A DNA stretch of 39,572 nucleotides from the NCBI GenBank assembly GCA_018304505.1, contig JAGVWA010000019.1, positions 1 through 39,572 on the forward strand, read 5' to 3'. A model generated the notes under the pieces. It made no database searches and was not told the DNA's origin. It worked only from the letters and a program-made list of their open reading frames with translations. The stretch is from Nanobdellati archaeon (GTDB taxonomy: Archaea; B1Sed10-29; JAGVWA01). The translations under genes and the position numbers were made by a program. This document shows, piece by piece, positions 4,578 to 20,200 of the stretch (the stretch's first letter is position 1; each line of letters starts with the position of its first letter).

Positions 4578-7500
4578 TTAAGCTGCCGTTGTCACGTTGA
4601 ACGGCCCAGTTTCTGCACAGTTGCTTCTCGCGTCGCATGCCGTGATGTTGTACCAATACAGCGTGCTTGGCAGTATTGACACATCTGTTACTGTGGTGTT
4701 AAATGACGCTTGGTAGTTGTTACCTACCCAGCCAGAGTTGATCAGGGACGCGTTTAGCGTGTTGCCCAAGCTTGTTGAGTTGCCCCACTTGATTGTTGTT
4801 GTTCCGAGGCTCGTGTCGTCTGTGAAGTTAAAGTACACCCAGAAGCTCGAGTTGCTGTCAGAGCCGTTCTCCAGCAGATTTATTGTTGGCTGTGCGGTGT
4901 CGTTGATGCTTATCGACATCCACGTGTAGAGGTTCGGGAAGTTGTTGGAGTTCACCTTGAACGACAAGGACTGGGTGCCTATTGCTGTTGACGCGTTTTG
5001 GCCCTGCGCGACCGTGAAGTTGAATATTGCCGAGGCTGAGCTGCCTGCAGTCACGTCACCAATGGTTATGGTTAGCGGCGTGTCGTTCACCATGTATCCA
5101 TAGTTCAGCATCCATGAGCTGTCAAACAATGCTGTGACGTTTTCAGCTGTTGGGCTGCCTGCCGGGTTTTCCACTGTCAGGTTCACGAAGAATGCCTGGC
5201 CTATGCCTACGGGGGTCTGGTTTACTTGTATGCTTGTTAAGCGGAGCGTGGCTTCTGCTGTGTTTGCCCATGCCCACCAGTACAGGATTGACTCGTTGGT
5301 GTAGTTCACAGTGCCCATGATGTTGATGCCTCCCGTGGGCCAGCCTGTTGTCGTGGTAATGTTCACAGTGGCTACGCCGTTGCTTGTTGTTCCTACTGTG
5401 GAACTCCAGTTTGATAGTAGCTGCATTCCTTGGCTTGGGCTGTAAGTCTCGAGCCTATACACAGACACATTTCCGACTGCTTGCGCGTCTGTCAGTGGCG
5501 TTGAGTAGTCGCTGCCGAACAGTGTCACGTTTAGCGATATTGTTTCTGTTGATTGGTAGCTTGACTGCATTGGCGATGTTACCCAGGCGCTGCCCCAGAT
5601 GCTGAACCTTGGCAGCTGCACTGAAGTGAAGCTTCCGTTCGACAATTGCAGCTGAACTGTGCCGTTGTATTCTGTCCAACCTGTTACTGGCCAGTACCCG
5701 TTAGGTGCTGCTACCTGCACAACTGCCTCGCCTGTTGCAACATTCGAGTTGGCGTCAATCGGCGTCATTGTTACTTGCGTGCACTGGTTCCAGTCCCACT
5801 GCCCTATTTGGCATTGCCTGTATTCCAACGTGATGTTTCTAACTGTAACGTTTATTCCAGCGCCTGCGGATGTTTTTGCCGACACGTTCAACGACACGTT
5901 CTGGTGCGGCGCAATGCTGCTGTAGTAGCTGCTGTTAGAGTACAGCGTCACTGATATCTGATCATCGTTTGTGATCCTTATCTGTATTGGCCATGATTGT
6001 GACGTCATGTTCTGTGTACCGACTAAAGCTTGGCCTGTTACCCTTACGTCATACGAAGCTGCTGCCAGTGTGGTGTTTATTGTCACTGTTTGTGCTGCTG
6101 CATCGAACACGTATGAAGAGCCGTTGGCGTTGTTGTAGTCGATTCTTGTTCCATCACGCTTTTCCAACCGTACTCGTGTAACCTCTGTGAGGTTGATCTG
6201 CTGCATTCCCATGCCTGGACCGCCTTCGATTTGCGCCATCAATTGTATTGTGATGTTCTCGCCCGGAGAGTACAGTGCTGAAGGGCGTTGCGGCATTGCG
6301 AATAATTCGAAGCTGCTTACCTCAAACCATGCCTCAGCCGTGGTTATTAGGCCGGTTAATGTTTGGTTGGCCCTGAGCTTCATTACGTATTGCCCTGTTG
6401 GTACATTGACTAAGGACACGTTCATCTGAGCCCAGCTCGTGATGTTCACTGGAGTGTATGTGTAGTGCGTTCCCTGTGTCAATGTAGTGCCTGTTTGTTG
6501 GTTTCTTATTGACTCTATTGTTATTGTTATGTTGCCTCCAACTACCTCTCCACCGCCCCTGTTGTAGACTTGCAAGTTCGGCGTTACCGTGTCAGTCGGG
6601 AGGTGCTTGTACTTCTGTGTCCATGAGTAGAAGTCAAATGGCCGGATGCCGAAGAATATCTCAACCCTTCTTGACTGCCCATTTGCTGGGTCTGCCAGTG
6701 TCACATACACGCGGTAGTCTCCCTGTGGCCACGTGAAACCGCTGCCAGGGGATAAAGTTATGTTTGTGTTTGAGCCGTCAAATATTTTTGTTGTTGAATA
6801 ACTTGAGGAGCTGACTGTGCCTGATGATCCGCCTTCTAGCGAATAGTACGTGACATTTACGCTAGACACCGTAAGGTTGATTGGCTGCGTGCCGAATGTT
6901 CCATTGGCCTTATAGGCATTCGCGACTATTGTTATGTTTGAGTTTGGCGAGAATTGGTATGCACTCCAACCGGTTGATGGATCTACAGCCCATGCATATA
7001 CCTCGAAGGCCTTGATGCTGAACCACATGTCTGTGGTGACTGAGTTGCCTGATTCGTCTGTAGCGTTCAGCGTGGCGACATATTCCCCTTCTTCCAGAGA
7101 ACCCGATAATTCTATGGTGAGGTTTCCTTGCCCAGTGGTGTTTCCAACAATCACTGCTGGCGTTGCCGTGTATAAGCTAGCGTTGTTGGCTCCTTTAGAG
7201 AACCCTGACGAGTAGCTGACGCGCCTTAGGCTCGACACTGAAACTGTGACGTTTTCGTTGTACGGTGTTGACATCCAGCCCCCGTCTGCGGAGTAGGCAT
7301 TCAATTGGACAGACATGTTTGATCCGGGCTGGAAGCTCCAGCCGTTGGCCCATGCCCAGAATTGGAAGGCCCTAACGTCGAAGTATCCCCATGCCTGTTC
7401 TACATTTCCAGCAGCGTCCTCGAACTTGGCCATGACGTTGTGGCTTCCTGTTTCCCAGCCGCCGCTCTTTGTTAAGTTCATTGTGCCGTTTCCAGTAGGC

Positions 7501-10500
7501 AGAGCTGTGTTGCTCCAGGTGACATTTGTTACTTGAGATGTTTGGAAAGTGGAGTAGTCCCACTTCATTACCTGCGTTTCAGTTGCTGTAACATTAACGT
7601 AGTCTGATGGCGACAGTGAGACGCCGCCCCACACAGCCCATGGCGCGATTTTTGTTGCTTGCACATTATACGAAATGTCCTCGCTTGGCTTGAATGTCCA
7701 TCTCCAATTCTGTGTTTGCATCTGCACGTAGAATGCCTTGACTTGGAAGAATATGAAGCCCGTGTCGGTGTTTCCTGATGCGTCAGTGACCTTGACTGTT
7801 GCCAAATAGTCACCCGTGTCCCAAGTGCTTGTCGGGACTATGGTTATTGAAGCGTTGCCCGTGCCGCTTGTTGTTGCTGTCTCAGCACTATAGCTGCTTG
7901 CTGCAACGTCTTCTGGCGGGAAGGCCATCTTCTTTATCGAGTCAATCGTTACAGTGGCCCCTGAAAGCGCTGTTCCGTTCGTATATTGTGCCATTACGTC
8001 TATCGGTATTGAGTCGCTCGGCGTGTATGTGAATTTCCAGTTCTGTGGCTGCACCTGCACCCAGAAATTCTTTACCTCAAAAAAGGCACTGCCTGTGTCG
8101 GTTGTTGTTCCTGAGGTTGCGCGGATTGCGAACCTGTGGAATCCGCTGCTCCAGCCGCCTGCTGGCGCTGGCACTACTACGGAGCACTCAGAACTCATGC
8201 CCATACCAGCGCTGGTTGTACAGTTCTGCGGTGTTATTGTGATTTCCTTTGGCGGCCACACGAATTCTCCGGGTTTACCCTCATACAACGCCTTTGTTAC
8301 GTTGACGTTAACGCCGTTGACGCCCATCCAGTTTTCAGGGTCGTACACTGAAACTGTTAGGTTAACGCCGTCGGTGCTGCCTATGAAGTAGCCCCCGTAG
8401 CCGTAGTTGTTGCTCTGTGAGCCGTTTCTCTGGGCCCATCCCCATACCATGTAGTTCCTCACTTCGAAAAATCCAGCTCCTAGATCTTCTCCCCCAGTCT
8501 GGTCTACTGCTTTTAGCTCAACCATATATGGACCGCCGTCCCATTGCGATGAGTGCTGTAACGTGATGCTCGCTGTGCCATCTTGGCCTGTTACTCCACT
8601 AACTGTTGCAGTCACCTTTGACGTTACGTCTTCTAGCGTGTCTGGGTTGAAGATCTTAACAACTGATAATGTGACGCCTTGTACGTTGGATCCTTCTTGG
8701 CCAAAGCCTCCGCCACTCATGAACATTCCGCCGCCTCCAGCGCCCCCTGCACTGGTCGCAGGCGTGCCGCCGCCGAAGCCGCCTGCTGGACCGAAGGCTG
8801 CCATTTCAAAGCCCTTTGTTGTAGCGGTTTTCACTTCTACCTTGAGCTTAACTTGCTGCGTTGGCTTAAATGAGTTGAACCAGAAGTTGCCTCCGTAGCC
8901 TCCACCGCCACCATACATGTTTCCGCCTGTTGTTCCGTCAAGCGATGGGAACGCGAACACGTCGTAGAGTTTCGAGAAGTAGAATGCTTCTGTAGGCACC
9001 ACTTCTGTTGTGTTGCCGTTTGTCACGTTTACTAATACCTCGAGCCTGTATGGGCCTCCCTTGGTGAGGCACGTGTAGGATATGGTCCTGTCGCTAGCGC
9101 TCGTTGTCAGATTTGTGATATTTGAAGTTAGGTCTGTGCTTTCCCTCAAGAGCTTGCTTAATGAGATTGAATTTATAGTTAAGCTTGAGTTTCCGCTAGC
9201 CTCTGCCCTGATCTGGAACCTGCAGGTTTCGCCTGCCTTTTGTATCCGCTTGGTCTTGTTCTGGTCGTCTATTGGAGTTAGGGTTGCGAATGCCGATTGG
9301 ACCCTGAAGTAGTCGGTTGCCTTAGCTATGTTACCTGAATCATTAGCTGTTACCTCAAGCTTGTACTGGCCCGCCGTTGTGGGGGCTGTAAATGTGAGGT
9401 CATACGTACCTGCAACGTGACTCTTGTTTGTGACGTTCAGCACTGCTGTTTTGCCTTTGTAAACCACTGCCGTGATCTGGTTTAATGTTGAAGCTGCCTG
9501 GCCACCGACAATGATCTTGCTCCTATTTGTGGCGTTTATTGCCTCTAGTGTGTAAGTAAACAGCCCTCCGCCAAACATGCCTCCTGTGAGGCCCTTGGTT
9601 TGCGTCTTCCTGTTTAACCTTAGTACTAATGCTTGAACCCTGAATGACACTGTGACTTCCTTTGTCTCATTTTCCCTTGTTGCGCTGATTGTTGCGCCGA
9701 AGTCTCCTGCGACTGTCGGCGTGTAGTTTACCGTGTACACTCCGGTAGTTGATGAATCAGCTGTGAACGTCACTGTGGTGGTGTTTCCTCCCGGAATGAC
9801 TATGGTTCCTGTTACCGTTGCTGACACGCCCGAGCCTGTGCTTAGCGAGCTTGTTTTGGCCCTTAGTGTAACTACAGAGCTTGACGGGAACACGAAGCCC
9901 TCATTGCCATTGGAGTCCCGTGCAGACGCAGTCACGCCAAATGTACCGATCTTGAACGTGGTGCCTGCCTCATATTCGTTAATGAAAACGTTCATTACGC
10001 CAGCGTAGCTGCTAGGCAGCGTGAATGGTGTTAGTGAGACAAGCCCTGCTGAGCCCGTGCTGTTGCTCTGTGAATTGTATGCTGTGCCGTTGGGGTATTT
10101 TGTCACGGCGGTGAATGAGTGGTTTACTGAGTTGCCCTTTGAATCAGATGCGGCAACGCTTATTATCACGTTTTCTCCGGCTGCGTAGTCGTATTTGTCC
10201 GTGTATACATAGAGGTTAGCATATGATACAACGGTTAGGTTGACTGCGTTTGATATCGAATCACTGCCATACGTCGCTGTCGCGTTCACCTGGTATTCTC
10301 CTTCCGTTCCGGGGTTGGTAAACGTCACAGAGAAGCCGCCAGTGCTGTTCGCGGTCGTGTTCGTGGTGGTGCCATTAAACACAACTGACACTGTCGCGTT
10401 ATCCGCCGCGTTTGTTGTATTATCGCTTGTGTTTAGGTAGCCGACAAAACCGACAACTGTAACGTCAGTTGAGGTGTCATATACTGATTGTTCCGACCCT

Positions 10501-10589
10501 GCATAGAAGACCAGTGCGAGGCCTGTTGACATTATTAATGCCAGCGCAACCATGGTTGCTACTAGCGTTTTCGCTAACCTTGTATTCAT
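4578..10589 (-). CDS. Large secreted surface protein (2003 aa) with tandem Ig/macroglobulin-like repeats
   Basis: Signal peptide/TM N-terminus (MNTRLAKTLVATMVALALIMSTGLALVFYAGS). Repeating units such as 'VKNFWVQVQPQNWKFTYTPSDSI', 'VKAFYVQMQTQNWRWTFKPSEDI', 'VRAFQFWAWANGWSFQPGSNM' alternate with 'WDTGDYLATVKVTDASGN'. Very high density of N-x-S/T sequons. Confidence 0.88.
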   Translation of the reverse strand: MNTRLAKTLVATMVALALIMSTGLALVFYAGSEQSVYDTSTDVTVVGFVGYLNTSDNTTNAADNATVSVVFNGTTTNTTANSTGGFSVTFTNPGTEGEYQVNATATYGSDSISNAVNLTVVSYANLYVYTDKYDYAAGENVIISVAASDSKGNSVNHSFTAVTKYPNGTAYNSQSNSTGSAGLVSLTPFTLPSSYAGVMNVFINEYEAGTTFKIGTFGVTASARDSNGNEGFVFPSSSVVTLRAKTSSLSTGSGVSATVTGTIVIPGGNTTTVTFTADSSTTGVYTVNYTPTVAGDFGATISATRENETKEVTVSFRVQALVLRLNRKTQTKGLTGGMFGGGLFTYTLEAINATNRSKIIVGGQAASTLNQITAVVYKGKTAVLNVTNKSHVAGTYDLTFTAPTTAGQYKLEVTANDSGNIAKATDYFRVQSAFATLTPIDDQNKTKRIQKAGETCRFQIRAEASGNSSLTINSISLSKLLRESTDLTSNITNLTTSASDRTISYTCLTKGGPYRLEVLVNVTNGNTTEVVPTEAFYFSKLYDVFAFPSLDGTTGGNMYGGGGGYGGNFWFNSFKPTQQVKLKVEVKTATTKGFEMAAFGPAGGFGGGTPATSAGGAGGGGMFMSGGGFGQEGSNVQGVTLSVVKIFNPDTLEDVTSKVTATVSGVTGQDGTASITLQHSSQWDGGPYMVELKAVDQTGGEDLGAGFFEVRNYMVWGWAQRNGSQSNNYGYGGYFIGSTDGVNLTVSVYDPENWMGVNGVNVNVTKALYEGKPGEFVWPPKEITITPQNCTTSAGMGMSSECSVVVPAPAGGWSSGFHRFAIRATSGTTTDTGSAFFEVKNFWVQVQPQNWKFTYTPSDSIPIDVMAQYTNGTALSGATVTIDSIKKMAFPPEDVAASSYSAETATTSGTGNASITIVPTSTWDTGDYLATVKVTDASGNTDTGFIFFQVKAFYVQMQTQNWRWTFKPSEDISYNVQATKIAPWAVWGGVSLSPSDYVNVTATETQVMKWDYSTFQTSQVTNVTWSNTALPTGNGTMNLTKSGGWETGSHNVMAKFEDAAGNVEQAWGYFDVRAFQFWAWANGWSFQPGSNMSVQLNAYSADGGWMSTPYNENVTVSVSSLRRVSYSSGFSKGANNASLYTATPAVIVGNTTGQGNLTIELSGSLEEGEYVATLNATDESGNSVTTDMWFSIKAFEVYAWAVDPSTGWSAYQFSPNSNITIVANAYKANGTFGTQPINLTVSSVNVTYYSLEGGSSGTVSSSSYSTTKIFDGSNTNITLSPGSGFTWPQGDYRVYVTLADPANGQSRRVEIFFGIRPFDFYSWTQKYKHLPTDTVTPNLQVYNRGGGEVVGGNITITIESIRNQQTGTTLTQGTHYTYTPVNITSWAQMNVSLVNVPTGQYVMKLRANQTLTGLITTAEAWFEVSSFELFAMPQRPSALYSPGENITIQLMAQIEGGPGMGMQQINLTEVTRVRLEKRDGTRIDYNNANGSSYVFDAAAQTVTINTTLAAASYDVRVTGQALVGTQNMTSQSWPIQIRITNDDQISVTLYSNSSYYSSIAPHQNVSLNVSAKTSAGAGINVTVRNITLEYRQCQIGQWDWNQCTQVTMTPIDANSNVATGEAVVQVAAPNGYWPVTGWTEYNGTVQLQLSNGSFTSVQLPRFSIWGSAWVTSPMQSSYQSTETISLNVTLFGSDYSTPLTDAQAVGNVSVYRLETYSPSQGMQLLSNWSSTVGTTSNGVATVNITTTTGWPTGGINIMGTVNYTNESILYWWAWANTAEATLRLTSIQVNQTPVGIGQAFFVNLTVENPAGSPTAENVTALFDSSWMLNYGYMVNDTPLTITIGDVTAGSSASAIFNFTVAQGQNASTAIGTQSLSFKVNSNNFPNLYTWMSISINDTAQPTINLLENGSDSNSSFWVYFNFTDDTSLGTTTIKWGNSTSLGNTLNASLINSGWVGNNYQASFNTTVTDVSILPSTLYWYNITACDARSNCAETGPFNVTTAA

Positions 10590-10891: not shown

Positions 10892-10925
10892 ACAACCCGG
10901 GTGGGTTTAAACCCCCCGGGGTTTT
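10892..10925 (-). terminator. Hairpin overlapping the apgM stop codon
   Basis: Imperfect inverted repeat centred at 10908/10909 (GGGTTT/AAACCC plus outer arm, three mismatches), followed on the minus strand by TTGTTTTAAATA. Confidence 0.4.
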
Positions 10926-12184
10926 GTTGTCACGGTTTTTCCCACCAGGTGCTGCATCAGTTCCGGGCCTTTCAGGTACAGCGCTGAACGTTGGCATTCC
11001 TTTTCTGAAAAACAGTGCGCTGCGCCCTTGTATTTTGTGCCGTGATATATCATCAAGGGCACCGGGTCTGCGGCATGCGCTTTTAATTCGCAGGGTGTGG
11101 CGTGGTCCGCAGTCACTGCCACAATTGTTTCATGATGGCGTTTTTGCAGCTCTGCCATTAACGGGAACATGAAGTACTTGTCGATGCGTTCAATGCTCTC
11201 GATTTTGCCATTGGTGTCGCCGTCATGGCCGTACAAGTCGGGGGCCTTTAAGTGAATGTACACAACGTCAGAGTCCCCGAGGGCTTGCAGCGTCGCAGCG
11301 AGGCGTTTTTTATATTCCTGCGCGTGTTCGCCGTGCACGTTGATGCCAATGACTCGCATTCCGCTGAGTTTGCCGATGCCTTTTTCGAGCGGCATGTCCG
11401 CAATGATGGTAAATGTCTTGTTGAACTTCTCACTTATGTTGAACAGCCGCGGCTTTTCAGTGCCCGGGTCTCGTAATAGAATGGCGTTTGCCTTTAACAA
11501 GCCTCGCTGCTCGCGCTTTTTGTTCACGGGGTGCTTGTCCAGGGCCCTGTGGACCTTGGCGGTAAACTCATTTACAAGCTGAGCAGAGCGCTGCGCCTTA
11601 GCAATTTCCTGTATGGCGACCGATTGCTGAATCTTCATTTCGTATTTCGGAAGCGCGTGCGGCAGGCCATACTGGATCGCATATGCCGGATCTGTGTTGG
11701 TTATCATTGGCGACAGTTGCTCCTTTAAAACCAGGATGCCGCGATGGGCGGTGGTGGCCCTGAACTCGAACCCCACGTCTAATCGGATTTTGTTGATCGC
11801 GTTTTCAAGTTCCTTCGCCTCGCTGTCTGTCAGTGTCCTTGCCACGCGCCTGTCCACTATATCCTTGCCGTTGCTGGTTGTGGCGAAATTCGCCCTCATG
11901 ACAAGATTCCCGGGCTCGAAATCAATTCCGCTGCCTACTGCTTCCAGCGGCCCGCGGCCTGTGTAAAACTTGCTGGGCGTGTAACCCAGTAAACTCAGTA
12001 CGGCGGCGTCGCTTTCCGGCGCAGTGTTTTCTATAACCTGTACAAGGCCGAGCTCTGCGTGCCTGCTCATCTGATCTAGTGCATGGGTCTTGGCCGTGTC
12101 TAGCGGCGTTCGATTTTTCAATTCCTTTAGCGGCCTGTCGCCCAGGCCATCGATCACTATGAGTATGAGTTTCTTCTGTGTCAT
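10907..12184 (-). CDS. apgM: 2,3-bisphosphoglycerate-independent phosphoglycerate mutase, archaeal type
   Basis: 'KLILIVIDGLGDRPLKELKNRTPLDTAKT', 'APESDAAVLSLLGY', 'YTGRGPLEAVGSGI', 'VYIHLKAPDLYGHDGD', 'AVTADHATPCELKAHAADPVPLMIY': alkaline-phosphatase superfamily metal-site motifs of ApgM. Confidence 0.93.
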   Translation of the reverse strand: MTQKKLILIVIDGLGDRPLKELKNRTPLDTAKTHALDQMSRHAELGLVQVIENTAPESDAAVLSLLGYTPSKFYTGRGPLEAVGSGIDFEPGNLVMRANFATTSNGKDIVDRRVARTLTDSEAKELENAINKIRLDVGFEFRATTAHRGILVLKEQLSPMITNTDPAYAIQYGLPHALPKYEMKIQQSVAIQEIAKAQRSAQLVNEFTAKVHRALDKHPVNKKREQRGLLKANAILLRDPGTEKPRLFNISEKFNKTFTIIADMPLEKGIGKLSGMRVIGINVHGEHAQEYKKRLAATLQALGDSDVVYIHLKAPDLYGHDGDTNGKIESIERIDKYFMFPLMAELQKRHHETIVAVTADHATPCELKAHAADPVPLMIYHGTKYKGAAHCFSEKECQRSALYLKGPELMQHLVGKTVTTKPRGV

Positions 12185-12191
12185 TGTTTAG

Positions 12192-12234
12192 AAGAAAACG
12201 CCGGGGCTTTTTATTGCTATTGATTTTGGCGCGC
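12192..12234. repeat. 43-bp direct repeat, copy 1 (5' leader of apgM)
   Basis: aagaaaacgccggggctttttattgctattgattttggcgcgc, identical to 12811-12853. Confidence 0.97.
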
Positions 12235-12235
12235 T

Positions 12236-12463
12236 TTAGACAACTGCAGATTTTAACACATTTACCCTTGCTATGACAAAGTCCTCTTCAGTTGGTACCC
12301 TCTCTTCAACTTTCAAGGCAGATATGTGCGCTTCGACTGCTTCCTTTACATTTTTTATTGTTTCCTCGATCGTCTCGCCCTGCGAATAACAACCCGGTAA
12401 GGCTGGCACTTCGGCCCAATAACCCCCTTCTTCGGCTCTAAAAACTAATACCGTATACTCCAT
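12236..12463 (-). CDS. hicB: HicB-family antitoxin
   Basis: 'MEYTVLVFRAEEGGYWAEVPALPGCYSQGETIEETIKNVKEAVEAHI': HicB partial-RNase-H-fold motif, immediately downstream of hicA. Confidence 0.92.
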   Translation of the reverse strand: MEYTVLVFRAEEGGYWAEVPALPGCYSQGETIEETIKNVKEAVEAHISALKVEERVPTEEDFVIARVNVLKSAVV

Positions 12464-12467
12464 TTCA

Positions 12468-12695
12468 TCATCTCCGTTTTAACAATCGCTCGAAATCCTC
12501 TTCAGTCAATCCTGCTTTTTTTATTGCAGCTTTAAGCAAGCCAATTTTAAGTTCTTTTGGGCCGGGTATGGTGATAATTTGCCCATTCGGCATCTTAATG
12601 TTAACATGATCACCTTTGCCTCCTCTTTCAACGCCTCCAGCCTTTATAAAAGCTTTTATCGCTTCTTTTCCTTTAATGTTCCTAAGCCAAGGCAA
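12468..12695 (-). CDS. hicA: HicA-family toxin (mRNA interferase), probable TTG start
   Basis: 'NIKGKEAIKAFIKAGGVERGGKGDHVNIKMPNGQIITIPGPKELKIGLLKAAIKKAGLTEEDF': dsRBD-like HicA fold including the 'GDHVNIK' catalytic-His region. Confidence 0.9.
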   Translation of the reverse strand: MPWLRNIKGKEAIKAFIKAGGVERGGKGDHVNIKMPNGQIITIPGPKELKIGLLKAAIKKAGLTEEDFERLLKRR

Positions 12696-12810
12696 TGGAA
12701 ATTCACCTGCTTTATAGTATTTGAGATCTTTATCTAATTCTCTCTATGAATGTATAAATACATTCCCTTTAGTTTACCCCAACTATTTTGGAAAGAGAGC
12801 CTAAGTTGAA

Positions 12811-12853
12811 AAGAAAACGCCGGGGCTTTTTATTGCTATTGATTTTGGCGCGC
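12811..12853. repeat. 43-bp direct repeat, copy 2 (distal side of hicAB)
   Basis: Exact copy of 12192-12234, offset 619 bp. Confidence 0.97.
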
Positions 12854-12865
12854 GTTGTACCGAAC

Positions 12866-13294
12866 TTACTCTATTGATCCCGCGATGCCGCAGATGCTGG
12901 TGCGCTCAATGTTGTTCACTAGCGACCTGTACTTCACAGCGACTTGGCCTGACACGTATTGGTCTGTTTCGCCAAGCCCGGGTATGCTGAAGAATTGCGT
13001 CTGTGACCCTGACGCGAGAACGTCATTTACTGAAATTGTCTGCGGCTCATTGCCTGTGTTGGCTGTAACGTCAACAACTACTATGCCCGCCTGCGCCAGG
13101 TTTGACAGCTTCAAATTCAGTGTCCCAGCCTTGTCGTAGTTCCAATCAACGATTTTGACTGTCTCGTCGCACAGTGAGTTGCCTGCCGGGGGCAGGTAGT
13201 AAGTGAAAAACCAATTGACAGAGAGGATGGCGATGGCTACTGTTATTATTGTGATGCTGGTCCTCTCAGGTAATCCAAATTCTTTTTTACTCAT
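12866..13294 (-). CDS. Small membrane-anchored extracellular protein, unknown function
   Basis: 142 aa with one N-terminal TM (SITIITVAIAILSVNWFFTYYL). Overlaps the upstream ORF by 4 bp (ATGA junction), suggesting translational coupling. Confidence 0.75.
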   Translation of the reverse strand: MSKKEFGLPERTSITIITVAIAILSVNWFFTYYLPPAGNSLCDETVKIVDWNYDKAGTLNLKLSNLAQAGIVVVDVTANTGNEPQTISVNDVLASGSQTQFFSIPGLGETDQYVSGQVAVKYRSLVNNIERTSICGIAGSIE

Positions 13295-14212: not shown

Positions 14213-17200
14213 TTAGTCGTCGTCATCGTCGTCGTCATCGTCATCGCCGCCTGCTGGTGGCGCTTTCTTGTACTTGCAGAAGCCATTGCTCTTGCACACG
14301 TCGACGTTGTAGCTGAGTCCATCGTCACAGTCTGCGTCTACTGAGCAGAACGGCGCGTCGATCTTGGCCTGTTTCTTGAGCTGCCTGATGATTTCGTGGA
14401 AGTCCTTTAGGAACCTCACGTTGTTGCTTGGGTCTTCGAAGGCCGTGTCGTCATCGTCCTCAACGTGGCACGCCTTCTTGGAGTTGCTCACGTCTTGGTC
14501 TATCAATGTGCTCATTATTATCATGTCGATGCGTTTTACCTGTCGCATGATGTCCTGCAATTGCTGCAAGTAACCGGCGAGCTGTGTCTTGCCCTTCTTG
14601 ATGGCCCTTGCTTCCCTTTCCTCTGCCTTGTGTATAGCCAGTATTGCGCTCTGGCAGTCCTTTTCTGTCTGGTGGCCAGCTGCCCTTAGCGAATCGATGC
14701 TGCCCATTGGCAATTGTACTTGCGATTCCAGGAACTCCTTCTCCATCTTTAGGCCTGCCTTTTCTACCTGCTCTATCTTGTTCCCCATGACCTTGAAGTC
14801 AGAGTGCTCCAGCGGCTTGACGTTGTTTAGGTTTATGGAGTTTGCCAATGCCACGAGGGCCAGTTTCTCTGCCACTAGGCCATTGGTACCGACTATTGTG
14901 ACTGTTGTTGTGTTTTCTGCTGGCTCTACTGGCGGCTCTATCTCGGCTGCGTTGGCTATCAGGTTTATGATGACGTTTTCAAAGTCATCAACGCTTGCCG
15001 TTACGGGCACTGTGGCTGACAGCGTTCCTGTAACCGTAGCGCCTGGGGCTATTGTCGGCAATGGCACTGAGGTGTTGGCGAAGCTTAACAATACCGATAC
15101 CGTGTCAGTGCTTAGTGTAGCAGTGCTGGTGTTGAACGCGCCGGTGTTCCTTACTTGTACTATAATGTTGAACGACTCGCCCGCAGCGTATGTCGAATTG
15201 TCAGTGAGCGGTGGGTGCAATGGAGCGACTGTTGGCGCTACTGTGATTGAGACTATCTCGAGCTGCACCTCGAATGCCACGGTGTATTCTATTGCGAAGC
15301 CCTCAGACACTGAGTCAGCTGAGTTGCCTGATGAGTCGAACACCTCGACTGTTACCGTGTGCGGCCCTAGTGTTGCTGTGTCAAGTAGCGTCAAGAGGCC
15401 GCTGAACGAGAACTCTGGCGAAGCGGGGTAATTGACGATCTGCTGCGTTGTTCCGAGGCTTGTGGTTGTTGTTACTACTGCCGTGTCGATGTCGAAGTTG
15501 TCGGTGAAGGCCCCAGTCAAGTTGAGTTGTGATCCAAAGACCACTGTGAATGTGCCGTTGAGTAGTGTGCTGGTTTCTGCCTGCAGGGCCAAGTCAACGA
15601 TCTCTGGGGCAATTGTGTCTTGCGCTGTTACTGTCGCTCCCTCGATAATGGTGTTGCCTTCGCTGTCGTTTGCAGTCACTGTTATGGCGTAGATGCCGAG
15701 CTCTGTTGTGTTTAATGCACAGGCTGCGCTGAAGGTGTCTTGCGTCCTGAGGTTTACGTCGGGCATTGTGTTGTCTGTGAATGAGCACAGCTGCACTGGG
15801 GCGCCGCCTGATGGTGCAACGTATGAAGCTGTTATTGCGTCTATGTCGTAGTTGTCTGTCACGTCAAGCTGTATGCTGCTTGCAGTGAACACTTCAACTG
15901 TTCCAGGGACTGGCGTTACTGTCACTACTGGCGCGATGCTGTCCCTTACTAGCACTGTGACGTTGACCCTGGCTTCATTTCCTGCTGCGTCTAGTATTAT
16001 GAGTTCTGCGTTGTAAAGGTCAGGGAAGAGTGTCTCGGTAAAGTCACCCTCGAAGTCTGCTTCCTCGCCGCCAGGTACTGTTCTGGAAGCGAACTCTGCC
16101 AATGTTACGATTTCGACTATGGTGCCGTTGCTGTTTGTTATGAAGGCCAAGCCCGTGTTGTTTAGGGCTATGTTGTCAAAGGCCGTGGCGTTGATCCTCG
16201 ATGTGTTGTAAACCTCGACTGGCGACTCTGCCTGCGCTGCCAGGATTTCTGGCGCTGTGGTGTCCTCTCCAAACACTGTCACCTCTGTTTCCACTATTGC
16301 GTCAGTCGTGAAGGTTCCGTCTGTGGCTGTGATTGTTATCTGGTAAGTTCCAGTGTCTGCGGTGCTGCCGATTTCGTCAGTGATGTTGCACTCATACGCC
16401 AAATTGACTGATGAGAAGGCTACTGGGGCTACTGATTGCTGGCACAGGCCGGTGAAGAGCGTGCCGTTGGGGTGCAGTACAGTGGTTTCGACTTGCGTCA
16501 ATTGGTAATTGTCTGAAACGCCTGCAAGTAGCGTAATTGTGTCATTCACAGTGTAGTTTTCAGCTAGCAGTATGCCAACGATTGTCGGCGCTGTTTGGTC
16601 TGCCACTGTGAAGGTTTCTGAAACGCTCACGTATGTTGGAACCGAGCCTTGGAAGCTGGCTTCCTGCGTCAACTTTATGTACCGTGGCGATGCGGGGTTC
16701 TTTATGTTAATGAATTCATTTCCAAAGAGTGTGAAGATGTGTGCCTTGCTGAAGAAGAACTGCACGCCTGCCGGTGTCGAAGTGGTGTTGGCTGCCTTTA
16801 CTCCCGTGAAGCCGATGCCGTTGCAGTTGCTGTTCGTCACATTCGGGAACGTGGAGTTCTTGAAATTCGCAACCAACGAATACGCGCCGCCAGAGAACGG
16901 CCTGCACTCAAACGCAAAGTTATTCGTTGCTGGGTCCACTGTTACGCGGAAGTCGTCCTCGCCGTCGCCGTTCAAGTCAACAATCCTCTGCGTGTCGCTT
17001 GTTGAACTTGGCTCGAAGAACAACAGGTAATTGGGGTTGGTGACTGTTGCCCTGGCTGCGAAGTCCCTGGACGTGGCGTAGAACGCTGGATTCAAGACTG
17101 AGTAGTCGTAGCTTGAATTGAAGGGGCTGTCGCCGCCGTTATAGGCTGAGACTGTCTTGCCTGCCTCGAGCTTAAACGTCAATGGGATTTGCTTGAGGGT

Positions 17201-20200
17201 TATGAATTCAGTTGCTGCTAGTGATTTGATGCCTATGTAATCCTTGTCGAACAGCGAGAATATTTTATTCCTGTTGAAGAAGATCTGTACGCCTGAGCCC
17301 GAGGCTGCCTTTATGCCTGTGAAGCCGATGCCGTTGCAGTTGCTGTTCGTGGCGTTCGGATATGTAGAGTTCTTGAAGTTCGCAATCAGCGAATACGCGC
17401 CGCCACTGAACGGCCTGCACTCAAACGCAAAGTTATTCGTTGCTGGATCTACAGTCAACCTGAAGTCGTCACTGCCGTCGGTGTTTATGTCAACCAACCT
17501 TACTGCGTCGGTGACTGTATTTGGCTGGAAGTAGATTACGTAGTTCTTGCTAGGCAAGCCTATGGTTCCAGCCAAGTTTATTCCAGTGTAACTTGCAGGA
17601 TCAATAATCGTGTAGTCATCTTGCGCCAAGGTGAGTGCCCCCTGTGTACCAGTGAATGTCGTCACTGAGCCTATCCTTAGGTCGAAGCCTTCAACTGGGA
17701 CTTCATCGTCAGTTGCGAACACCCGGGCGGTGTAGGTGCCTAGTTCAGCTGTCTGGGTAAATGGGCACGTGAAGTTCAATTCAGCTGCCTGGAATGCTAC
17801 AGGTCCAACATTGTCCTCGCATTGTTGTGTAAATGCTGTTACTGATGGCGTTATGAATTCGCCATACACCGAAGTGAGCTGATAGTTGTCTGAAACAAAT
17901 GCGGCTTCGTCAAGTGGCTCGTATATGTTTACTGTCTTGTTCAGCGGATTGAGGTTGAGTATTGAAAGTATTGCTGTTGGGTCGTCTCCTGGGAAGTCGA
18001 CTCCCTGTATTACTGGCAGCAGCGTGTCTTGTGCCTGGAATGTGGCGGTGTCAGTTGCTGATTGCCCGGTTTGGTCAACAGTTGTTACTGAGACTAAGTA
18101 TGCCCCTAGTTGAGATGTGTTGCTGAACGTTCCGACAAAGGTTGCCTGCGTGCTGCCTGCTGTGAAAGTCGGCGTTAATGGAATCACGCCTGCTAATGCG
18201 CCATTTGGCGCGAATACTGTAGCGGTTGCAGTGCCGACGGCGAAGTTGTCTGTCACGTTGGCGGTTATTGTCGTGCTGGTGTATATCTGGGTGTCGTCTG
18301 CGTCTATCGATTGTATCACCGGCGGCTGCAGGTCGACTGTGATATTGAAGACTTCGTCTTGTGCTGTTGATGGTGAATTGTCATTGTCAGTGGCAACTGC
18401 CCTCAAGTTGAATACCCCGCCTGTTGGAGGCACTATGATGCTCTTGAGCTTGATGTATGTTGTCGCTGCCTGTGATTTTATGCCAATGAAGTCGTTGCCG
18501 AACAGCAACAGGACCTTGGCCCGGTTCACAAAGAGCTCCATGCCATTGCCAGTTGCGCCCTTGACTCCAGTGAGGCCAACGGTGTTGCAGCTTGAGTCTG
18601 TTCTGGTTGGCCACGTTCCATTCTGGAAACCGGCCACTAGCTCGTATGATCCACCAGAGAGGTTCTTACATTCTATTGCAAAGTCTTGTGTAACAAAGTC
18701 AATAGTTATCCTTAGGTCATCTTGATTGTCTCCGTTCAAATCAATGAGCCTTACCTGATCTGATATCGAGCCCGGCTCGAAGAAGTTAACGTAGTTGTAA
18801 TTCGGAGAAGCTTGCCTTGTGGCGAAGTTCGTTCCTTGGTAGTTTGTCGGGTCAAGCACCGTGTAGTCGTCGCTGCTTACATATCCTGTTGTCAAACCCC
18901 TGCCGTTTCCGCCGTATTCCCTCAACATGAATTCATTAGCGCCTAAGGTAAAGCTTGGGTTCCAGCTGACGCTGTAAACATTGCCAGGCCCGGGTACTGT
19001 GTCTATGCCAATGCTCACAGGAACACCGTTGAATTGGAAGAACTCAACCTTGTTAATGCCTGATCCTGTGTCAGTTGCAACTGCGGTTACTGTGAATGGT
19101 ATGTCATCAGGGCCGAGTACTTGGTTGTTTACTGGGCTTGTCAATGTGACTTCTGGCGCCGTTGTGTCATCGTCTGTAATCAGTGTTGAGACTACACTTG
19201 AGAAGGTTGAGGCCTTGTCACCAGTGTGGTCGTTGTCGTTGTCTGTGACCTTTACTATCCAGTAGATTGTGTCCCCTTCCTTCGCGTCTCCGATGAATGA
19301 ACTCAATAATGTGGCAGTGCCTGAAATTATGTCAAGCTCGCCGTCATTGACCGTGTCTGAAACGCCCGGGTTGTTGAACGCAAAGTACAGCTTGGCTTCT
19401 GAGATGTCAGAGTTGCCTGTGAACTCGTCTGTGAATGAAACCGACACAAGGATATTTAGGTTTGATGCTGACTCATTGACAACTGCCGGCACGCTTAATG
19501 TCGGGCCCTGCGTGTCATCATCGGCTACTGTTAAGTCGGCAAATGCCATGGCTTGCTGCCAGAACGCGTCGCCTGAGAAGTTGGCGAAGATCGCATTACT
19601 GACCGTACCCGGGACCCTGCCTGCCAATGGAGCAGCTGGTGTGCACGCGAAGTCGCCTGTTGATGCGCTTGATGTTGTTGAGCATGTTTCGAGCGCCTCG
19701 AAAATGCTGTTGTAGTTAGTGTCAACGCCCTGCGACACACTGACAGACCTGAATTCGGCGTCGTCTGACTGTATGTTTCCGCTCAGTGCACAGGTTTGTG
19801 TTTCAGTGCATGTCTTGGAGTCGGCTGTTATTATTGTCTGCTCTGGGTCGACATTCAATGTACCGGTAGCCTGTGCTGCGGTGTAGAACGTGTTGGATAG
19901 TAAGTTTACTGTGATGCTGTAAGTGCCCTGTGCCAGTTGTATTGAGGCTGCTGGCTGACACGTGAATAGTCCCGAGACAATGTTTGCGTCGCACGTTTCT
20001 CCCACGCCCTGTAATGTATCGCCGTCAGCATCCACGAATACCCTTGCCTGCGCGGCCTGCGTCGGTGTTGGCCCGTCGTTTTCTTCTGCGCTTCCTGAAA
20101 CTGCCGGCGTTGGGTCACTGAACCTTGCTAGTACTGTATCGAGGCTTAAGAATAGCGTTTCCTTTGCAATCGTCAGCGTAGCGGTGTCGCTTGATGACGT

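Follow-up and report, generated by a model that had tools for sequence, protein, structure and literature searches.

A hicAB toxin-antitoxin cassette enclosed by a 43-bp direct repeat in a Diapherotrites archaeon and its probable insertion with target duplication

Known modes of insertion of small gene units

The pdif modules of Acinetobacter plasmids and the gene cassettes of integrons are small gene modules, often toxin-antitoxin (TA) pairs, that are inserted as units. Casposons and tyrosine-integrase elements at tRNA 3' ends leave a direct repeat upon insertion at the 3' end of a gene. TA pairs are also known to act as stabilizers of elements. The description that best fits the locus presented here is "insertion with long target duplication", reported for restriction-modification (R-M) genes and here for TA cassettes. 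According to the papers that cite the original work (Nobusato 2000; Furuta 2010, cited in PMC3874152 and PMC3031569), R-M systems have been inserted with a long, variable target duplication on the order of 100 bp and without a linked mobile element.

As far as these citing accounts go, the resemblance extends to a unit of predicted addiction type, the lack of a linked mobile element, a long duplication of variable length, and inference by genome comparison. The differences from the R-M insertions as recounted there are in cargo, here type II TA pairs and an ATPase, and in hosts, here mostly DPANN archaea. The duplications described here span 20 to 99 bp, different cassettes are stacked in arrays on one repeat, and the unit often ends at a stop codon. 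Insertion sequences, in contrast, generate short duplications of fixed length. Whereas pdif modules and integron cassettes depend on a conserved recombination site and on Xer or IntI, the repeats here differ at every locus; they are locus-specific host sequence with no attC-like conserved site. Unlike casposons and tyrosine-integrase elements, the cases in this study show no common ends or site, and no tyrosine integrase was found in the genome. Our search of the open-access literature returned no description of long-target-duplication insertion for TA pairs, and an earlier description is possible; a large survey of TA systems says nothing about direct repeats or duplicated targets (PMC2701414). 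The HicAB family itself is already known, and what is notable here is the mode of insertion.

The hicAB locus upstream of apgM

The analyzed stretch of DNA (the window, 39,572 nucleotides) belongs to a genome of the phylum Diapherotrites, which contains AUK230; the hicA of a relative (genome G009) has 100% identity to an entry for Candidatus Diapherotrites archaeon AUK230. Two identical copies of a 43-bp direct repeat, AAGAAAACGCCGGGGCTTTTTATTGCTATTGATTTTGGCGCGC, are located at positions 12192 to 12234 (copy 1) and 12811 to 12853 (copy 2), at the offset of 619 bp given in the original prediction. Weak similarity reaches past the 43 bp, to 52 bp at 94%. Between the copies lies a 576-bp core on the minus strand (12235 to 12810) comprising a TA operon with its own promoter region and nothing else. 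Its GC content is 39.8%, whereas that of apgM is 53.3% and that of the upstream side 49.5%, in agreement with the earlier description of an AT-richer segment holding hicA and hicB alone. Transposase genes are absent from this core, and inverted repeats of at least 12 nt were not found between positions 11500 and 13600; the gene content is thus consistent with the proposal that no transposase was carried in.

Both genes are encoded on the minus strand. The toxin gene hicA (12468 to 12695; 75 amino acids, TTG start) matches PF07927 with an E value of 1.9e-12, and its product retains the conserved His of the G-x-H motif, the G and H columns being invariant in the alignment. The antitoxin gene hicB (12236 to 12463; 75 amino acids) starts 4 nt downstream of hicA and matches PF15919 (8.1e-11) and PF21748 (2.6e-8). 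The PF07927 and PF15919 matches both exceed the cutoff. Judged by these profiles, the pair is a HicAB type II toxin-antitoxin system in which a HicA-fold toxin adjoins HicB. It shares with the family the arrangement of HicA (PF07927) and a HicB-like protein (PF15919) in one operon, but its HicB is short, with 75 amino acids that match only the first half of a 123-position profile. A perfect 18-bp palindrome, GAATGTATTTATACATTC, covers a TATA-like box ahead of hicA (12748 to 12765, minus strand) and is a candidate operator/promoter that may travel with the cassette. Because the hicB stop codon is 1 nt from copy 1 and the palindrome with its TATA-like box precedes hicA, the insert has the appearance of a whole unit running from promoter to stop codon.

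On one side, the cassette is flanked by apgM (10907 to 12184, minus strand), the host gene with the apparently duplicated promoter, which encodes a 2,3-bisphosphoglycerate-independent phosphoglycerate mutase (PF10143, 1.9e-41; PF01676, 6.4e-31). Copy 1 contains a TATA-like sequence, AATAAAAAG, centered approximately 27 nt ahead of the apgM ATG, and its assignment to the core-promoter position of this gene, as initially proposed, appears reasonable. Copy 2, on the side away from apgM, starts 12 nt past the stop codon of the upstream host open reading frame (ORF) (12866 to 13294, minus strand), whose 142-amino-acid product has no Pfam match. Removing the insert together with one copy would leave a gap of approximately 62 bp between the upstream gene and apgM, 43 bp of which is the duplicated part. 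Elsewhere in the window, two giant minus-strand ORFs of 6,853 (14213 to 34774) and 2,003 amino acids (4578 to 10589) probably encode surface proteins; they contain internal repeats, for example, at 16790 to 17446.

A repeat pair of this kind could also arise by chance, from a dispersed repeat, or as an assembly artifact, the genome being a draft of 21 contigs. The 43-mer was searched for in the whole genome (917,116 bases, up to three mismatches allowed). Only two copies were found, both at this locus, and the reversed pattern used as a control gave no match. Further genomic copies had been named in advance as an observation that could refute the insertion, and a dispersed repeat is ruled out by this result. 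The exact 43-mer is located mid-contig, and a like structure is present in many independent genomes, so that an explanation of this type is extremely improbable. With the 43-mer unique to the locus and the pattern recurring at others, there is support for the view that hicAB was inserted and the apgM promoter duplicated in the process; that the two copies are 100% identical is consistent with the suggestion that this was recent. The window locus would have been empty before this event. The nearest genomes compared belong to the same order; no close relatives of apgM were found among the contigs of the compared genomes, 60 genomes yielded no informative DNA relatives of the locus, and no viral carriers of the window hicA were found.

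Recurrence of bracketed cassettes in this and other genomes

Six HicA loci are present in the genome, and four of them are bracketed by direct repeats with a score of at least 17 within 700 bp. Since only 0.87% of 200,000 random sites are bracketed in this manner, the binomial probability of this outcome is 8.6e-8. One of the two loci that are unbracketed at this strict threshold (L020, 7567) has a weaker 24-nt copy of 83% identity. The repeats differ from locus to locus, and all of them are host sequence. At L021, a 25-bp repeat derives from the upstream region of a secretion-ATPase gene, and at L019, the repeat is the 3' end of leuS, present in three copies. At L022 (4138 to 6359), the 3' end of an intron-containing tRNA gene (intron length, 143 nt) is present four times, and the copies are separated by three different two-gene TA-like cassettes; the hicA of this locus is broken by a stop codon. 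At L020 (6296 to 7232), exact 99-bp repeats carrying a gene 3' end enclose a two-gene unit (80 and 234 amino acids, no family match), a candidate for a new addiction-type pair. A third, weaker copy follows the next hicBA, bringing the locus to three copies. Separately, a HicB-like ORF at L019 (758 to 1039), without a Pfam match and without hicA, lies beside a complete hicBA, with which it has promoter-proximal sequence in common; it is possibly a decaying earlier cassette.

The use of one repeat by different TA cassettes, with four copies around three cassettes at L022 and three copies each at L019 and L020, is what would be expected from Campbell-type homologous integration. Small TA circles with one copy of the local sequence would pop out when the repeats recombine, and a single crossover would return them to the corresponding site in other cells. 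The first insertion would have occurred otherwise, and the arrays would represent cassette exchange. The geometry is the same as that of a single-crossover product. However, repeats of 20 to 40 bp are short for homologous recombination, the repeat boundaries at L022 vary from cassette to cassette, and the first arrival at a new site of unrelated sequence is left unexplained. We regard this route as unlikely.

A repeat-first scan was applied to stretches totaling 444 kb, about half of the genome, for pairs 250 to 2,500 bp apart. Long direct-repeat pairs were rare, and most of those away from hicAB, not all of which were inspected, appeared to be inside paralogous or repetitive coding sequence. 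The scan revealed two more cassettes with noncoding brackets: a 51-bp repeat around a RelE-like TA pair, a homolog of the third L022 cassette (L058), and a 50-bp repeat around an AAA_14-DUF4143 ATPase gene, the genome's only DUF4143 gene (L059, 69 to 1561). ATPase genes of this type (PADLOC candidate PDC-S01) are also bracketed in several Diapherotrites (L059, L156, L167, L173, and L178), with repeats of 29 to 58 bp.

For other genomes, a locus was counted only when the repeat flanked the whole TA operon. By this rule, HicA loci were bracketed in 3 of 16 cases from other Diapherotrites, 8 of 62 from a second DPANN-like phylum, and 4 of 19 from a mixed set, and none of the 16 Alba control loci was bracketed. 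Seven of the 8 cases in the second phylum are clean (L212 is doubtful), as are three of the 4 in the mixed set. Looser rules gave 17/64 for HicA, 1/26 for Alba, and 9/26 for DUF4143. Clean cases include a 66-bp repeat in a deltaproteobacterium (L101) and a 43-bp repeat in a Patescibacterium (L102). The brackets of L112 and L116 are palindromic elements which may be dispersed repeats, and L068, L076, L181, and similar loci were set aside because of their resemblance to tandem TA copies or coding copies. At L030 of genome G012 (1120 to 2333), a Fic/Doc-like gene and a small ORF come after hicBA, with related short repeats of terminator- or promoter-like appearance in between; this is possibly a further stacked array.

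Duplication length varied between events from 20 to 99 bp, with a median of 40 (n = 26). The gap between stop codon and repeat at the 3' side had a median of 5.5 nt and was 6 nt or less in 10 of 18 cases. At the 5' side, the median gap of 84 nt leaves room for a promoter. TA families were recognized by profile in most cassettes, and the addictive nature of the cargo is predicted. Inspection of 22 cases by eye revealed no common ends, and no gene for a Cas1-family integrase was found within the cassettes. One motif, CTGGTTTAAAC, occurs in three of the repeats and was considered as a recombination site. This was rejected because it is also present in other upstream regions, and it was taken as a promoter element. 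The motif recurs upstream at L020 (6142), L021 (3902), L022 (8041), L050 (14067), and L062 (14257), often with GTTGCAAAA and a TATA-like box after it, and may be a promoter element of this archaeon.

The tRNA 3' end at L022 and the gene 3' ends in several other repeats are reminiscent of attachment sites, and a site-specific integrase or similar enzyme acting in trans could have used them as such, as at tRNA 3' ends. However, the repeats of different loci have no common sequence or attachment core, and some of them correspond not to 3' ends but to promoters or to the 5' ends of genes (L021, L025, and, as judged from the position of copy 1, the window locus). Furthermore, the genome, which is approximately 93% complete, has no match to the tyrosine recombinase profile PF00589, whereas all 14 control genomes do. 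Site-specific integration is therefore quite improbable. Most archaeal chromosomes encode XerA (PMC8371274); by the same profile and at the same completeness, this genome apparently does not.

Gene ends duplicated in other genomes include those of PCNA (L218) and leuC (L111). The L205 repeat covers the junction at which two convergent genes, glyA and one for an EamA transporter, abut with their 3' ends, both of which are left intact; the glyA neighbor differs in G088. Often a duplication includes a promoter or the end of a gene, which keeps the targeted gene intact. At L191 in genome G078, the 43-bp repeat is the 3' end of a DUF424 gene, and the order is DUF424, hicBA, 43-bp copy, and a YafQ/ParE-type pair, beyond which no third copy was seen. 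In all four same-genus relatives, DUF424 is joined directly to the next host gene. This is a direct demonstration of an empty site for this class of event, in another DPANN phylum, and it pertains to L191 rather than to the window locus.

It also bears on whether a larger mobile element might have integrated with duplication of its target or attachment site and then shed everything but the loss-resistant TA pair. Such pairs stabilize elements (PMC2654758), and the repeats survive at both ends. However, in the L191 comparison only TA genes were inserted, and the cassettes consistently consist of promoter plus genes with intact repeats, which would require precise trimming each time. We consider reduction of a larger element very unlikely.

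Proposed insertion mechanism and its significance

We propose that hicAB is a self-contained mobile cassette that was probably inserted upstream of apgM with a 43-bp target duplication, by capture at a long break followed by fill-in. The unit, from its own promoter to its stop codon and with neither transposase nor conserved ends, would enter the gap of approximately 62 bp upstream of apgM. There, two nicks set far apart, or a long staggered break to the same effect, would open the target, and host repair would join the cassette between the broken ends. Filling in of the long single strands would create the direct repeat, and the 43 bp of duplicated target would keep the apgM promoter intact. 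A long staggered break with capture and fill-in fits the data because the duplications vary in length, the cassettes have no common ends, and a tyrosine recombinase was not detected. Recipient cells would retain the cassette because loss of a TA pair is presumably costly. Long duplications would make insertions survivable in a gene-dense genome, since they restore the promoter or gene end that the insertion disrupts. Repeated insertion at one place, or homologous recombination between the repeats, would then build stacked TA arrays.

Random break repair predicts neither the reuse of a site, as at L022, L019, and L020, nor a 3' boundary so close to the stop codon, and both features hint that the process may be more specific. 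As random capture does not explain them, there is room for recombination between repeats or for a specific enzyme. A dedicated, as yet unrecognized machinery acting in trans in archaea and bacteria is conceivable, and we put it forward only tentatively. It would insert promoter-to-stop operons with duplications of 20 to 100 bp at gene ends and promoters, stacking TA and ATPase cassettes into integron-like arrays without a conserved site.

The loci described here bear on the question of how small TA pairs can pass from genome to genome in the absence of transposases. They offer a recognizable scar in the form of a long, host-derived direct repeat close against the stop codon, with many examples in both domains. 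They also give a concrete prediction, since precise empty sites can be checked for in any well-sampled species. The pattern suggests how compact genomes may tolerate insertions, with the duplicated piece restoring a gene end or promoter. Since it recurs around unrelated TA pairs, both at further loci of this genome and among other archaea and bacteria, it looks like one general route by which such genes move.
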